From Utricularia gibba (lineage: Eukaryota > Streptophyta > Magnoliopsida > Lamiales > Lentibulariaceae), in the NCBI GenBank assembly GCA_002189035.1, contig NEEC01000002.1, positions 5,355,001 through 5,419,000 on the forward strand: a DNA stretch of 64,000 bases, written 5' to 3'. Position 1 is the stretch's first letter; each line of letters opens with the position of its first letter. Positions 41,181-50,719 of the stretch are shown here, piece by piece. Both the position numbers and the translations under genes were made by a program. Under the pieces are notes generated by a model. That model was not told where the DNA came from and did not search any database. It saw nothing but the letters and a program-made list of their open reading frames with translations.

Positions 41181-42248
41181 AAGCCATATTAATCTAAAAA
41201 TATAAAATATATATGTAGATAAATACATTTAACATAAATACTATAAAACCATATAAAATATATTGAAATGATTCGAAAAAATAAGCAATTTTTTTCAAAA
41301 ATATATACAATAAGAAAATTATATAAGATGCTAAAAAAATATAATTTTATACCATGATATATAACATAGTTATCCTATAAAAAATTATAATTTAAAGCTA
41401 TAAAATATCACCAAGTACTAATTATTCCAAAATATCAAGCAAAAAAGTTAGAATGTTTAGAAATTTTCAAAGCCTCAACTAGTACAATTAATGTGAAAGA
41501 TGGAATAGAAACTTTAAGAACTTGCTAAAATGCAAAAATTCTACCTTAGGAAGTAGGGTTTTAAGAACTTTAATGTAACAAATCTATTACGCAAGAAAAC
41601 CTCGAAAGATGAAAGTGATTCTTAGGAAGTAGGGTTTTATAAAATATGTTACAATAAAAAAATAAATAATATATAAATATTTTTTATTCGCGGAGAGAAA
41701 TTGACCATGAACGGAATTTTTCAGACAAAAGTGTATGACACATTGTTATTCAAAAGTAGTTATTCATTTCCACCTAACCATGTGAAAGCCACATTTACAC
41801 AATAGATGCCCTTATATTGTGTTGTAGGTCAGAGAAGTCCTTGCTACAAATAATTCGATTTTAGTTGATTTTTTTGTTTGTGTTGCTTATTATTGTGAAG
41901 AAGAAGAAAAAAATACAATGTTTGATGATTAAGAAAAGAAGAAAATGAAAAATATTGCAACACTAGAGAAATAATTTCACATAAAATATGAAAATGAAAG
42001 TGAATACCTTTACAAAATATATACAAGTGGTTTTGAAGTCATATTAGACTCAACTTTGTAGAAAAGCTTCGAGTTCTAAATTAGCTATGAATAAAATTTC
42101 TATAAAAGTAATGATGAAGAATGAATGAGTAGCAAATATAGAGATAGTTTCATGAAGTGTAGTGAGAGCTTGAAGACAACAAGCATTAGGAGGCCAAGTC
42201 ATGTTTTTTTGGATCTCTCTCTCTCCAAAGCTTTTTTCCCATTTATAT
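41181..42248. other. AT-rich spacer
   Basis: No credible gene. The end of the second Harbinger element probably lies here, but I cannot identify its terminal inverted repeat. Confidence 0.4.
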
Positions 42249-42901
42249 GTTGAAATTAAGGATTCAATGGATCAAATGAATACACATAAATCCAAGTATA
42301 CAAGAAACATAAATTATATTAGAAAAGATTTAGGTAAACCAATTACTTGTGTTTTATAATTTCTCATACATTTGACTATTTTACTTTCAAGTTCCGATGT
42401 AATATTGTTTGTTCTAATATCCATCCTCAACTTGAACTAATATTCAATCCGGTTAGACTTGTTTTTTGTAATTTTAGCTAATATTTGGATCATAGATCAA
42501 TCTAATTTTTTATCATCTAAATCCAATGCATTTTCTTGTCTTTTTTAATCAGAACCCAGACCAATACAAAACCCATATTGACCTCTCAAACCATTCCATC
42601 AGGCAATGCTTTGATATCATGTTGGAATTAAGGATCCGAAGAGTTGAGCGAGTACACATAAATCCAAATACACAAGAAACGTATATCACAATAAAAAAGA
42701 TTAGGCTCAATCAATTACTTGTGATTTATAATTTCTTATGTGACTATTTCAATTTCAAGTCTGAATATATGATTGCTTGTTCTAATATCCGTACTCAAGT
42801 CAAATTGGTCTTCGTTCCGATTAAGACTTGTTTTTATGTGTCATGTGTGGTTGTTGCACCAGTTCCATTATTCCTTTACACTGTCACCTACCACCTTTGC
42901 A
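42249..42901 (-). mobile_element. Possible miniature LTR element (TRIM-like) or two related Copia LTRs
   Basis: Two direct repeats start TGTTGAAATTAAGGATTC (42249) and TGTTGGAATTAAGGATCC (42614) and stay alignable for about 200 bp. Just left of the second copy is GCTTTGATATCA, the reverse of the initiator-tRNA-Met type site TGGTATCAGAGC. A pyrimidine-rich stretch (42532-42546) would be the polypurine tract on the minus strand. Together this reads as LTR, about 80 bp of internal sequence and LTR on the minus strand. The right-hand ends of the two repeats do not align well, so the outer borders are uncertain. Confidence 0.5.
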
Positions 42902-43207: not shown

Positions 43208-43214
43208 CACCAAC

Positions 43215-44422
43215 TGATAACACCGTTTTTATAGTGTTTTATATATGTTTTTAAGTGTGTTTTATAGGGTTAAATGTTGCTTAGGGTGCCAAAATGTCTT
43301 CTTTTGCGTATTTAGACTGTTGAAATATGTTAATTGTGAAAACATGCTCAATTGTTGCCAATTGAGCCGAAAACTCTAATATTTTGTCTAGTCTATGTTT
43401 TAAGTCTTACCAAGGAAAGAGCTAGTACCGTAGTAGCGCACTTTCCACGTTGACATGTCAGAAGGGACAGAAAAGTTGTTCAAAAGTCACTTTCCGCCGA
43501 AAGCAGCCGCCCTTCTGAAGAGATAAGATATAGAGCAGGGATCTCCCTTCTAGAAGTCAGAGGAAAAAAGACCAAGCTGCCCTTACTTTTGAGCAGCAAA
43601 AGGGAAAATGGAAGGGAGAGAAAGGAGGGAGTACACTGTGCACGCAGAGTGCACAGACAGCGAACAGGAACGAGCGGGAACGAGGAGAACATCGTTTCTC
43701 TGGCGACCTCCAGATCTGCGTGTCTACACCACCGTTCCGGCCAGAACTTCGATTTCCAACAGATCTCCAACCCATAGAAGCATCCTGCAACTTTTATTTA
43801 TAGATTTATGCACTCCCTTTTCTGCGTGAACTTGCTACTGTTATTGTCGTTGTTTTTATGCTTTCTGTTGTGTTTCGGTACCCTGTTGTGAACGAGAAAC
43901 TAGTTGTAGACCTTGTTTTAGCTTATGAATATGCTGCTATTTACCCTTTTTGTGCTTAGCCTTAAGTTTAACGCAATTTACTGTTCCTATGAACCATGCT
44001 CAGTTTATGCAAACCATTACTCTGTTTTTCAGCACTCCAAAGCTAGGTTTAAGTCTATAGCTCTCTTGAGTGACACAAGAGCTAGACCCTGATGTAAAAC
44101 CCAGCCAAATTACTTTTATTTTATGTTTTCTGCACCTTTACGTCAATTTCAATCTCTTTTCACCACTACAACTCATTTATTCCAGTTACTATTATTTTAG
44201 ATCTTACCTGCGTTAGAACTAAACTCCAGAAAACCCCCCTGTTTCCAGTAAATGTGTTAAACTTCAGAAAATTACAACCATTCCCTGTGGATTCGACATT
44301 TTCTTGCCACACTACTAATTCTTGTGATTTGTGTAGTAGATTAGCTTGGTTTATAAATTTCTTTTGATGTGTTGAATGTGTTAAATCGCGACATTAAGCA
44401 ACCTCATTTCCAACGTTCATCA
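43215..44422 (+). mobile_element. Solo Gypsy LTR with target duplication CCAAC
   Basis: TGATAACACC..GTTCATCA, 1208 bp, flanked by CCAAC at 43210-43214 and 44423-44427. Near the 3' end it has CCCTGTGGATTCGACAT, a phrase typical of the 3' part of plant Gypsy LTRs, and a TATTTATAG box about 590 bp into the LTR. No internal domain remains, so it is a solo LTR. The GC-richer frames at 43480-43829 lie inside it and are not genes. Confidence 0.88.
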
Positions 44423-44430
44423 CCAACTAC

Positions 44431-44700
44431 TAAATAATTATATATTTGACCTAAAAATTATGAATTTGAAGTATAACGAACCCAAAAAATTTTATAACAG
44501 GGCATAACGGGCGCATACAATTTCGTAAATAGGCATATTTGACCTACAAAGTTTTATTACTGTAGAATACACCCATTTAATAATGACAAATTTGACCTGA
44601 TGAAATTTCAATTTTGGCATATTTGACCCACATAATTTACTGGTTCGATATATTTGATCCACACAATTAAGCCTGGTTTAATAATATTATTATTATAATA
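44431..44700. repeat. Left terminal repeat array of the Mutator-like element
   Basis: Repeated words of the form CATATTTGACCYACAAARTT at roughly 30-45 bp spacing. The same word in reverse complement fills 50230-50690. I read the two as inverted termini built from degenerate subrepeats. Confidence 0.5.
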
Positions 44701-46026
44701 ATTATTAAAAAAATCAAAATTTTTATATTTGAAAATTTCCCCAAATTGATTAACAAGTGAGTTGAACGAATTTCCTTAAGAATTAACATAAATCGTTCAT
44801 TCCCCTAGCTCCAACATTTTTCCCTTCTGGTACTAGGTGAATTTCGTGCGGAATCTTTTCCGGCTACCGGAGCTGAATAGTGCTACGCGGCAGAGTTGCA
44901 GGGGGTGGAAGCTAGGGTGCTATTTTCTGGCAGTGCACTCGATAAGCCATGGTTGAGGACCATAAGGGTATGGGTCGTAGATGGGTAGTAGGAGGATCAA
45001 ATCAGCGGAGGCAATGGTGAATTTACGAGGCTCCCACTGCCTTTTCTTGAAGCACTTTTCCTTTCAGTGAAGTATTTAGACCCCCTTCAACGTCAATGGA
45101 CTGTTAGTTGAAGGTCAACTTGTAAGTGAAGGAAGGAACAACAGGTTGTTAAGGTTTCAATGGAGTTGAACCTGCACCCAAACCTGAGAAGGGACTGAAG
45201 AAAGCCTATAATGGTACTATGGTAGGAGGAAGAACATTAAAGAATATAGCAGGTAGCGGAGAGGGATAATTGGGAAAGACAACAAACATATTTATTTTTT
45301 AGAGAGTTTATCTTATGGGTATCACTATTATTCATTTCATAGTTTATGTTGTCTCTCTCTTGTAATTAATAATCTGTTGACTTTGCATGACACCATTTAA
45401 TATGAACTGCTAATATCCATTGAATGTTCATCTTAGTTCAATTTTATTGGAGTTCTTGAAAGTTTGCATTCAGGTTTATATTGTGCTTTTAATCTTCAGT
45501 TTTCATATCGCAGTTATTGAAAGTTTACATTTAGGTTTCCTATCCTCTTCGCATGTATGGATATCTGGATTATATGCATTTAATCTTCAGTTTTATGGGG
45601 TCAAATGCAATGAAATGGTGTTTTTGACTTCTTGATGATTCATTAAGAACTGGAAAAAGATTTTTTTTTTCTATAATCACAACCAGCCTATGATGCAAAT
45701 ACTATTATGGATTGAGTTTTGCATTGGTTTTAGATAAAAAAAAAAAATGTAACATGTTCTTCTATAAGATGTTGCACATTATAAGATTATTAAAACATGT
45801 GCTTTTTACTTGTAATTTTTTATGGATTAGTGTTATTTATTTTCTAGGATTATATGCTCTTTGTATTATGCTATCACTAAGGGAGCCTTATGTTCTTTTT
45901 ATGCATGCTTTTAAAGATTTTCCATATGACTTCTGTTATATTTCATGTTAGTCCCATCAAAATAATGGGTGTCAATTGTCCTCGTCAATCTTATTATTGA
46001 TTTCTTAGTTGATTTATTTGAAGATA
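44701..46026. other. Internal left part of the Mutator-like element
   Basis: Contains a moderately GC-rich stretch (44800-45250) and then AT-rich sequence. No frame could be assigned. Confidence 0.35.
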
Positions 46027-46400
46027 TGTATACTTACACGAAGTATGAAAGCGACTTCGAATTAGACTACGGGAGTGAAGACGAAGACTATGAAATTCTT
46101 GACGACCAATTCCCCCTCTAGAATGATGATTATGGACTATCTTTGCAAGTTCCCGTATCCGAAGGAGTACAGTCGGAAGCTTCTCGTAATGAAACGAGTG
46201 AAGGGCTTTTGAACATTGTCAGAATGGAAAGTGTTCGAATACAAGAACTTGTGTAAGTATAATTTGTTATGATTATATTGTATTATTATTGTCTTTAGTA
46301 TTTAAATTGGGAAAAGGATAATCTTTGAATCGAAAGCCGACGCTAAATATGCACTTGAAGAATATTGCGTGCGGAAAGTTTATTTTTGTCCTAAGGTATG
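46027..46400 (+). pseudogene. Mutator-like transposase, N-terminal DNA-binding region
   Basis: Plus strand: an acidic leader (ESDFELDYGSEDEDYEILDD, one stop), an intron-like gap around 46254-46310, then FESKADAKYALEEYCVRKVY at about 46325-46385. The latter matches the F-x-S-K-x-x-x-K-x-A-V-x-x-Y pattern of the MuDR N-terminal domain (PF03108 type). The catalytic domain that should follow is not present. Confidence 0.65.
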
Positions 46401-46574
46401 TATTTTTGAAGTATTTTTTATATATATTTTTGGATTTGTTTTTAATTTTGTAGTATTTTTTCTTACATATTTTTGATTGATTTATTACTGAACATTGTAT
46501 GTTAGAGGTGTATCTTATTTATTATATAATAATAATTTAGTATTTAAGTATAGTTTGTTTATTGGATTATGTGA

Positions 46575-47215
46575 TAATATTTAGTTTTATTATAAGAATT
46601 AATGTTATATATGTTTTATTTTTTAGTATGAATACTTTATATTCTATTATTATGTTTATTATAAGAATTAATGTTATAATTTTTGTATTTTTTAGTATGA
46701 ATATTTTATATTCTATTGTTATATTTATTATAAGAATTGATGTGATATGTAGAGTATTTTTTAGTATGAATATTTTGTATTCTATTATTAGTTTTATTAT
46801 AAGAATTGATATTATATTTATCATATTTTTTATTATGAATATTTTATATTCTATTGTTATGTTTATTATAAGAACTGATGTTATATTTATTGTATTTTTT
46901 AGTATTAATATTTTATATTATATTGTTATGTTTATTATAAGAATTGATGTTATATTTGTTGAATTTTTTAGTAAATATTTTATATTCTATTGTTAGTTTT
47001 AGTATAACTATTGATATTATATTTATTGTATTTTTTCGTATGAATATTTTATATTGTATTGTTATTTTTATTATAATTATTGTTATTATATTTATTATAT
47101 TTTTTGTATGAATATTTTGTATTATATTATTAGTTTTATTATAAGACTTGATATTATATTTGTTATATTTTTTTACTATGAATATTTTATATTTTATTAT
47201 GTATTTTGTAATTTT
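46575..47215. repeat. 69-bp minisatellite, about nine copies
   Basis: Tandem AT-rich array; each unit begins near TTATTATAAGAATTGATGTT and contains TTTTTTAGTATGAATATTTT. Because the period is 69 bp (23 codons), one frame stays open for six units and translates into a hydrophobic repeat (FIIRIDVIF..MNILYSIVM). I consider that an artefact of the array. It sits exactly between the N-terminal and SWIM parts of the transposase. Confidence 0.85.
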
Positions 47216-47224
47216 TTTATTGTT

Positions 47225-47640
47225 TGTTTAGATATATCTTGCAAACATGCGACCGTTGCTATTATTTTGGAGATGTGTACTTTGGTCGAATACACGGACT
47301 CTAGATATACATATATGGTCTATCAAAGAATGTATGACGATGACGTGTTCAAGTTTTTGGGAACTGAAGAATGGCCTTGTATGGTTGATTTACCACTACT
47401 TCCACCTAAGTGGAAGCATAGGAAACGTGGCCAGTCATCTACTTCACAAAAGCGCAGATCCTCCAAATTTTGTCCATCACACTCTTTTTTGTATGGATTG
47501 GTTTTGGATTTATGGTCGATTGAATATAAATTGTAGGTTGGTATCATGTTCTACATGTGTCAAGAAAGACCATAAGACAAAAGATTGCAAAGAGGATGAA
47601 TTAAATATAGATAGGGCTCAACGAATGAAACTCTCATGTC
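47225..47640 (+). pseudogene. Mutator-like transposase C-terminus (SWIM and zinc knuckle)
   Basis: DISCKHATVAI is the CxH part of a SWIM zinc finger. TYMVYQRMYDDDVF and EWPCMVDLPLLPPKWKHRKR match the usual linker before the basic region of plant MULE transposases. After a frame change, CSTCVKKDHKTKDC (about 47545-47590) is a CCHC knuckle. Confidence 0.75.
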
Positions 47641-47969
47641 ACTAGAGCCATGTACGGCCAACATGAAAGCTACTGATTATTGTAGTTAGATGGGCAATGA
47701 GGATGTTGGTGAGAAGTTCTCACCAAAGCCTCCAAACTGCATCAAGAAATATCTCTAAAGATGGTACTAACAAGTGTGGTGTACAACATGCCACATGATC
47801 AAACTAACAACAAAGGAATTATCTTCAATAGTTGCGTGAATATGTGGGTGGAAGTCAGCAGCAACTCGGATGCTTCCGAGTTTCAACCAGTTTCCGAGAA
47901 ATAAACGAGTTGATGGATGGTGTACTAGACGACATCATTTAATTTTATTCATGATCATTGTTTTTATCT

Positions 47970-48850
47970 GTAGGAAAATAGTGGTATTGCAGCCACCGGG
48001 TTGTCTAACGAATGTTGCATTCATCCACAACCTATGGATGCAACATGCCATGGAGAAAAAGTTTGACTTGGAAATGATTGAAAAGTGGTGTGTGAGGTAC
48101 AATTCATGCAACACTTGTTACATCATTTTGCCAATTAACATGAAGTTTTTCTATACATATATATTCTTTATTTGCTATTAGAATATATGTTACTTTGAAT
48201 TGTCTCTATGTCTCGTAGTGGTTACTACACCTTTGCCATATTGGGCAATCTTGGAGAGAAATACCAACAATGTATCTTCGTCTTGGATTCGATGCATAGC
48301 ATGTCAACTCATATACCAAGTAACCGTCGAAAGTAAGTTATGTGTTTTAATACCTTGTGCTATATTGTATTTTATTATTAATCTCTATTAATTTTTTTGT
48401 TATGCATGATCTATAAATTAGTGCACTTCATTTTTAAAGTGAATGGTTGGGATGATGATTGTGTGAAGGAGCTTGAGTTGTCTATTTTTTAGAGGGGGTA
48501 GTATAACTTTGTTGATATTATTTTTTTCCTTATTTTAACGTTGATCAATATATCAGTCTCTAAACAAAATGGTGCAATTGAGTGTGGGATTTATGTGTTA
48601 TACTATGTGTATCTCTTCTTCCAACAAACTCCAAATTTTTACACTATCGAAACACACCCCTTATTTGTAAGTAATTTTCAAAATTTGCTGCTTATTTTAT
48701 TAGTAGGTATTAAGTACTATAATGTTTCTATAGATGGTACGAGATTGGTTCGTTGAAGAATATGTTTGTGAATTTTCAAAGTTGATGAAGATTCCTCATC
48801 AATCTAGGAGTGGCCGAGTAAGCAAATCTTCCAAAAAAATATAGACATTG
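47970..48850 (+). pseudogene. ULP1-type cysteine protease (C48) carried by the Mutator-like element
   Basis: Pieces in order on the plus strand: SGYYTFAILGNLGEKYQQCI with FVLDSMHSMSTHI at about 48217-48330; SKQNGAIECGIYVLYYVYLF at about 48556-48615; and RDWFVEEYVCEFSKLMK ending at 48790. These match the plant ULP-like genes captured by KAONASHI Mutator elements; ULP1 enzymes cut SUMO from proteins. The catalytic Cys (ECG) and its upstream Gln are retained, but the HY/HW dipeptide reads YY, so the His is lost. Frame changes separate the blocks. Confidence 0.7.
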
Positions 48851-49147
48851 AACTTGTTTGTTGATATGAGTTTGTAGACTTTGTTATTTGTCTTTGACAT
48901 TATTTATGTATTATATTTGTTTCTTTAAATTTTTAAACAAACATCATACGAAAATCATAATATACATTGATTTCTGTATTTTTGAACATTAATTTATTTG
49001 AATACTTATTACTATCATTCTAATTACATTTAATAAAAAAATAAATACAATTATGTAGAAGGGCACATAAAATATTACACGAGATACACGCCCCTATAGA
49101 GGGTGACACACGAGCATGCAAGGTGGCATACGAGCGTGGGTTACACA

Positions 49148-49228
49148 TGTGGAGGGTGGCATACGGGTGTGGGTTATGGTGACCCACATCCGAGTACGAC
49201 AACCCACGCCCGTATGCCACCCTCCACA
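49148..49228. repeat. Hairpin-forming inverted repeat
   Basis: Arms 49148-49175 and 49201-49228 are reverse complements over 28 bp with one mismatch, with a 25-bp loop. The left arm contains GGAGGGTGGCATACGGG. A partial extra copy of the arm (GGTGGCATACGAGCGTGGGTT-like) lies just upstream at about 49121-49141. It is GC-rich within very AT-rich sequence. Confidence 0.8.
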
Positions 49229-50229
49229 CGGGCATGGGTTATGGCATATGTCACAACATGTGGAGTATGACATATTTTTTTAAGTTGTTATTTGATATGT
49301 TTGGGGTACTCAAACTTAAGAATTTCATAAAAAAAATAATCTAATAATTTTTTTATTATCAAAAAACACTCTATCTTTATGACTTTTATAGATAGAATGT
49401 AATTTTTTATTGAATTATTTTTTATTCATAAAATAATGAATTCAATACTTATGTATTTTAAGGAAATAGTGTATTATTTTATTTATTAAAAAAATAATGC
49501 ACTCAATCCTTATGTATTTTAAGAAAAGAATGTGTGATTTTATTTATTATTTTTTACTCATAAAATAATGCATTCGATCCTTATATGTTAAGTAAAGAAT
49601 GTATTATTTTATTTATTAAAATAATAATAATCGAATGATATACATGTGATACTGTCACGTTTAGATTTTTACATTAAAATTTTTAAAAAAATCAGTATAA
49701 TGTTCACATTTTTGCTCTCAAAATGATGCACATGTGTACCATTTTTTCTCTCAAAATTAAAAGTATATTTAATATTAGTGTAAACAAAAGATAAATTTAA
49801 AATAATATATTCATTCATCTTATATACATATATTCTTCTGAATAACATATATTATTAGTATGTTTTTTATATAATCAATTTTGTAAATAAAGCTATTCAA
49901 TATTATAATATTTTTAATATTTAGTTATAAAATTTATTTAATTTGTTATCATTTGTATAATATAATTTGTGTCAAATAAAAATCCAAGATTGAAAACCTT
50001 AGCCCACATCCAAGATTTTTTTAAAATATATAACCCGACAGGTCAAATCCATGTATCCATCGAGGTTGACCTGACTCGTAACCATTTGAAACAGATACGA
50101 ATCACAAGTTTGACTCATAGTGGGTCGAACCGATAGATATTCACATTGATTGTTATGCCTACGTGTACAAGTCACTTCGACCAACATTTATTTCAAAAAG
50201 AATTCAATTTTTTAAAAAATTTTGATAAA
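49229..50229. other. AT-rich internal right part of the Mutator-like element
   Basis: Low-complexity AT sequence with loosely repeated TAATGCATTCAATCCTTATG-like words at about 49430-49600. No coding frame. Confidence 0.4.
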
Positions 50230-50709
50230 CTTTATAGGTTAATTATACCAATTCGATAAACTTATTGGATTAATAATGTTAATTTGTCACACTTTATGGG
50301 TTAAATATGTAGATTTAACAAATTTCAAGGGTCAACAATGTTAATTTATTAAATTGTAAGGATCAAATTGTCAAATTATTGGATTGAATATACCAACTGA
50401 ACACTATATATGTGACCAACAGTAAATTTATTGGGTCAAACGCACTCCATTGTAAAGTTTTATGACTTTTCGTTGGGTCAAATATATACTGCTATAATAT
50501 TTTGTAGGTCAAAAATATCAAAACTAAATTTTTATGGGCCAAATATATTATGCAATAAAGTTTTTACAAGTCAAATATGTCATTATGTAAATATTTTGGA
50601 TCACATATGCTAAACGTATACCAATTCAGGTCAAATATGTCAAATCGATCATTTTATTATGAGTCAAAAATACAAAAAAAATCAAAATTTAAGGTGATGC
50701 CATCATCCC
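50230..50709. repeat. Right terminal repeat array of the Mutator-like element
   Basis: At least ten degenerate copies of a GGTCAAATATGTCAAT word at about 30-45 bp spacing, the reverse complement of the words at 44431-44700. The array ends near 50690, 20 bases before ACCAACTAC, which also occurs at the left edge. Confidence 0.55.
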
Positions 50710-50719
50710 CACCAACTAC

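Follow-up and report, generated by a model that had tools for sequence, protein, structure and literature searches.

Mutator-like elements (MULEs), which generate target site duplications of 8 to 11 bp (PMC6446971), include plant families that carry a ULP1-type protease. The ULP1-containing MULEs of melon (van Leeuwen et al. 2007, as cited in PMC2528002) and the Mutavine families of grapevine (PMC2528002) encode a MURA-type transposase with a SWIM domain and, downstream of it and in the same orientation, a C48/ULP protease; families with and without clear TIRs are found among them, and the duplication in grapevine is always 9 bp long (PMC2528002). In the KAONASHI elements (KI-MULEs) of Arabidopsis, poor or absent TIRs also accompany a ULP protease domain, but ULP and mudrA point in opposite directions (PMC2528002). 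In non-TIR MULEs the TIRs are relatively short and resemble each other little (PMC3903597); in the Arabidopsis VANDAL elements they are short or degenerate (PMC6446971), and a short motif, repeated at high density and in one orientation, forms arrays in the non-coding DNA that are bound by VANC proteins (YAGTATTAY in the case of VANC21) (PMC5735166).

The window analysed here is a 64,000-nucleotide stretch of Utricularia gibba DNA (contig C451:5355001-5419000), and relatives were sought in 100 Mb of genome. On its forward strand, from 44431 to 50709, lies a 6,279-bp MULE copy that is internally deleted and non-autonomous and whose ends are common to about 30 copies. It is assigned to the MULEs because of its target duplication, its domains, and its dispersed copies. 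The initial annotation had proposed a Mutator-like element with a ULP1 protease, an identification borne out by the family ends, by the 10-bp duplications, and by MuDR N-terminal, MULE DDE, SWIM, and C48 domains scoring above the Pfam cut-offs in relatives. With its protease in the same orientation as the transposase, as in melon and grapevine, the family is a previously known type of ULP1-bearing MULE and not KAONASHI; it differs from the grapevine elements in the length of the target duplication, which is 10 bp rather than 9. Taken as a whole, the locus probably records the insertion of a defective member of this family, whose inverted ends are short and degenerate and whose C48 (ULP1-type) protease lies downstream of the transposase, then that of an LTR element, and then the reduction of the latter to a solo LTR.

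The right target duplication, CACCAACTAC, occupies 50710 to 50719 on the forward strand, and the left one can be assembled from its first seven bases, CACCAAC (43208 to 43214), and its last three, TAC (44428 to 44430), with the LTR in between, both exactly as initially annotated. It had been overlooked, however, that an uninterrupted CACCAACTAC is also present at 44421 to 44430, because CA forms the 3' end of the LTR. On the forward strand of the window this 10-mer occurs only at 44421 and 50710. From base composition, the chance of finding it at one fixed place is about 6e-7, and the place was not free to choose, being the one where about 30 sister copies terminate. The genome search with both element ends, a check proposed at the outset, returned 34 left-end and 27 right-end matches, and the copies elsewhere in the genome (about 30 left and about 27 right ends) stop exactly at the equivalents of 44431 and 50709. 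When aligned, they share a single left terminus, GAGATAATTACATATWTGACCTAAAAATTATG, and a single right terminus; the family begins with GAGATAATTACATATWTGACCTAAAAATT (about 30 copies) and finishes with ...AAAATTTTAGGTCACAAATGCCATCACCCC (about 27 copies). The window copy itself reads TAAATAATTATATATTTGACC at 44431 and ...GATGCCATCATCCC up to 50709, with a small deletion within the right end. The family thus places the borders at 44431 and 50709, where the duplication places them too.

Ten other distinct insertions could be paired. The 10-bp duplication is exact in four of them (C409, CCTCGATTAC; C1, GAATTTTCAG; C4a, TATAAGCAAC; and the inner C4 pair, CTTTTAGAAC) and has one mismatch in five (C413, C415/C414, C142a, C142b, and the outer C4 pair), while the 10-bp flanks of the tenth, C2a, are ambiguous; a 10-bp duplication, within the MULE range, is seen at the window copy and at nine of these ten. 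Among mispaired controls, only 4 of 132 had no more than one mismatch, and inspection of the table traced two of these to the C4b/C4c swap and two to the duplicated C414/C415 locus. The latter, counted here as one insertion, consists of one MULE with identical flanks on two contigs (C415:8966-11369 and C414:3144830-3147236), of which C415, 50 kb long, probably represents a redundant haplotype.

The initial annotation saw its weak point in the unlike ends of the element. This is true of the window copy, whereas in the family consensus the ends partly match: GAGATAATTACATATWTGACCTAAAAATT and GGGGTGATGGCATTTGTGACCTAAAATTT are alike at about 21 of 29 outer positions (counted by eye), and the differences are mostly A/G, so that the objection falls away. 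The two ends of the window copy have decayed beyond this consensus. Over a longer range, the left and right sides are just 60 to 78% similar, in short patches, and the short, poorly matched inverted ends are those of a non-TIR MULE, as in VANDAL and KAONASHI elements.

The coding content of the family is seen in the C1 copy (6,850 bp, with the same ends), a member with the MuDR DNA-binding, MULE DDE, and SWIM domains of a MURA-type transposase (PF03108, 33.2 bits against a cut-off of 25; PF10551, 41.0 against 27.6; PF04434, 39.0 against 19.6). Its N-terminal domain, DDE domain, SWIM domain, CCHC knuckle, and C48 exons follow one another in that order on a single strand, and the reversed ULP of KAONASHI is not found. 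On the forward strand of the window copy, a remnant of about 20 amino acids of the MuDR DNA-binding domain (46318 to 46377) is directly followed by the loss of 472 bp of the C1 copy, and an AT-rich repeat stretch (46592 to 46970) marks the loss of about 930 bp more, which in C1 hold the DDE domain together with the first half of SWIM. The C-terminal half of SWIM and the subsequent transposase sequence (47225 to 47470; no Pfam match alone) precede a CCHC zinc knuckle, CSTCVKKDHKTKDC, read from the translation (47546 to 47590), and three C48 exons: exon A (47975 to 48109), an exon that covers the His and Asp positions (48220 to 48333; GYYTF, against GHYTL in relatives), and an exon with the catalytic Cys (48553 to 48669; AIECGIYVL). 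Asp and Cys are kept, the catalytic His is replaced by Tyr, and PF02902 scores 13.9 bits against a cut-off of 20.7; the C375 relative reaches 32.4 bits against the same cut-off and, with GHYTL, VLDSM, and ECGIY, appears to retain the His-Asp-Cys residues. The MuDR N-terminal, SWIM, and C48 parts named in the initial annotation are therefore present as remnants, but the first is limited to about 20 amino acids, the second to about half of the domain, and the third falls below the Pfam cut-off. Judged from its sequence, the window copy is non-autonomous and protease-dead, because nothing is left of the DDE domain, little of the MuDR domain, and only half of SWIM, and because the catalytic His of C48 is Tyr. 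No copy with every domain intact was found among the family copies read, which were pieced together from separate loci; a genome search with PF02902 missed the C48 exons of the family itself and is uninformative, because these exons are short and split by introns. In the interior of the MULE, at 49140 to 49260, words resembling CACACGGGCATGGGTTATGG form an imperfect inverted repeat, noticed by eye.

Two other readings of the element were weighed. The CACCAACTAC match might be accidental and the true ends lie elsewhere, given that the ends of the window copy match each other so badly (left TAAATAATTATAT, right ...CATCATCCC); the common family ends and their duplications refute this, since sister copies stop at the same bases, each with its own 10-bp duplication, and a match at a place so fixed would be a vanishingly rare chance. 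A Pack-MULE or domesticated ULP1-like gene in place of a decayed coding MULE is also very improbable. The C48 exons are indeed the only part of the window copy to stay reasonably whole, but its reading frames are broken, the catalytic His is gone, and C48 follows the transposase parts in equal order and on the same strand in many sister copies. The identity of the element as a MULE with borders at 44431 and 50709 is, in our judgment, settled with near certainty.

Near each end of this MULE lies an array of TTTGAYC motifs pointing inward, five in the left array (44431 to 44661, forward strand) and six in the right one (50010 to 50709, minus strand, read as GRTCAAA on the forward strand). The inverted TTTGACC arrays reported earlier are thus present in the window copy, and they are inward-facing throughout the family: 18 left ends (300 bp each) and 15 right ends (500 bp each) together hold 151 inward and 0 outward sites, with about 5 expected per strand, the 151 being not independent events but a one-sidedness that is a trait of the family, as the copies are related. 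The commonest spacing is 31 bp, and the best helical period is 10.05 to 10.4 (p from 0.001 to 0.3, depending on the copy); phasing at about 10.4 bp is suggestive only, because the sites may descend from duplications of about 31 bp. TTGACY is the core of the W-box, and WRKY-GCM1-type fingers occur in MULE transposases; for these two reasons it is a fair guess that the arrays are putative binding sites of the transposase. The term WRKY-GCM1 has been applied to MULEs (PMC5225508, PMC3903597), and a literature search for a W-box link in MULEs gave no direct match. The arrays parallel those of VANDAL elements but differ from them in the motif, TTTGAYC, and in being subterminal on both sides.

The LTR (43215 to 44422, forward strand; 1,208 bp, TGATAACA...TTCATCA) is flanked by the 5-bp target duplication CCAAC at 43210 to 43214 and at 44423 to 44427. 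Dozens of genome copies align to it across positions 1 to 1208, the nearest being 90% identical, and the four copies examined begin with TGATAACA and finish with ATCA. There is no second LTR within the window; because the copy there is single and has CCAAC on either side, the LTR is solo, and this part of the initial annotation stands, with the TG...CA ends and the equal borders of the other copies agreeing. Its position in the duplication of the MULE is an unremarkable instance of nested mobile elements. Immediately to the left of the LTR stand two diverged direct repeats, each about 220 bp long (42247 to 42466 and 42619 to 42835), that are 76% identical.

The two insertions could have occurred in either order. 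Removal of the LTR and of one CCAAC does restore CACCAACTAC, as it should if the solo LTR had split the duplication, but the MULE-first order which that description takes for granted is likely and not proved: both orders yield identical letters and require one coincidence (CA before CCAAC), and the order leaves no trace because the CA of the LTR end equals the CA of the target. If the LTR were the older (CACCAAC-LTR-CCAACTAC), the MULE would have landed at its 3' edge and duplicated CA plus CCAACTAC, that is, the last two bases of the LTR and eight flank bases, and the uninterrupted CACCAACTAC at 44421 to 44430 would require no splitting. Both copies are old, with terminal branches of 0.057 (LTR) and 0.070 (MULE); the LTR branch is slightly the shorter, which weakly favors the MULE as the first to arrive, but these lengths are upper bounds on age only, and an attempt to date the order by divergence failed to separate the two. 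An empty site, the other check proposed at the outset, was not found in this genome, because the flanks are single-copy; joined without the insertions, they matched only themselves. MULEs prefer low-copy DNA and seldom insert in retrotransposons, whereas LTR elements commonly nest in MULEs (PMC3903597), and for this reason we consider it probable that the MULE inserted first and the LTR element afterwards, the reverse order being less likely.

With the MULE first, the history of the locus would run as follows. The element inserted at 44431 to 50709 by cut and paste, duplicating the 10-bp target CACCAACTAC, of which both copies are seen; the transposase was most likely given in trans by a fuller relative, and if the copy moved in its present form, it can have done so only with transposase from another source. 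The inward TTTGAYC arrays near both ends are probably binding sites of the element's own proteins. An LTR retrotransposon then most likely entered the left CACCAACTAC, leaving the CCAAC duplication, and recombination between its LTRs would have left the solo LTR that is present now.

Elsewhere in the genome, at C4:1959130-1970080, two members of the family (C4:1959142-1962339 and 1967049-1970068, minus strand) with swapped 10-bp duplications enclose a host segment of 4.7 kb; CTTTTAGAAC is found at both inner sides and TATASATTAA at both outer sides. The enclosed DNA is a circularly permuted copy of C414:1427028-1430333 (right flank, then left flank), 91 to 97% identical, into which about 1.4 kb were inserted later. 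In C414 an empty site with a single CTTTTAGAAC persists, and the junction in C4 falls on the 6-bp sequence CCCATA, which is found at both edges in C414. In human segmental duplications, permuted order together with junction microhomology has been taken as a sign of a circular intermediate (PMC7450558). On the simplest account, a copy of the host segment would have contained a MULE and circularized on the 6-bp homology, and the circle with its MULE would then have recombined with another that was already resident at C4. An alternative, in which one segment with its MULE was duplicated in tandem and the two then transposed jointly, was rejected, as the two MULEs have unrelated middles. The likely origin of the composite is an extrachromosomal circle that entered a resident MULE by recombination.

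Sister copies thus make it possible to prove exactly where a MULE begins and ends even when it is decayed and its ends match poorly, and the account of which insertion came first at this locus has been corrected. The family is a clean one in which to ask what one-directional TTTGACC arrays bind. The C4 locus would be a rare, readable footprint of host DNA that passed through a circular form and rejoined the genome by recombining with a transposon; with the chances about evenly balanced, members of this family may serve as landing places for circles of host DNA, and the W-box-like TTTGACC array could be the putative binding site of a WRKY-GCM1-type finger.
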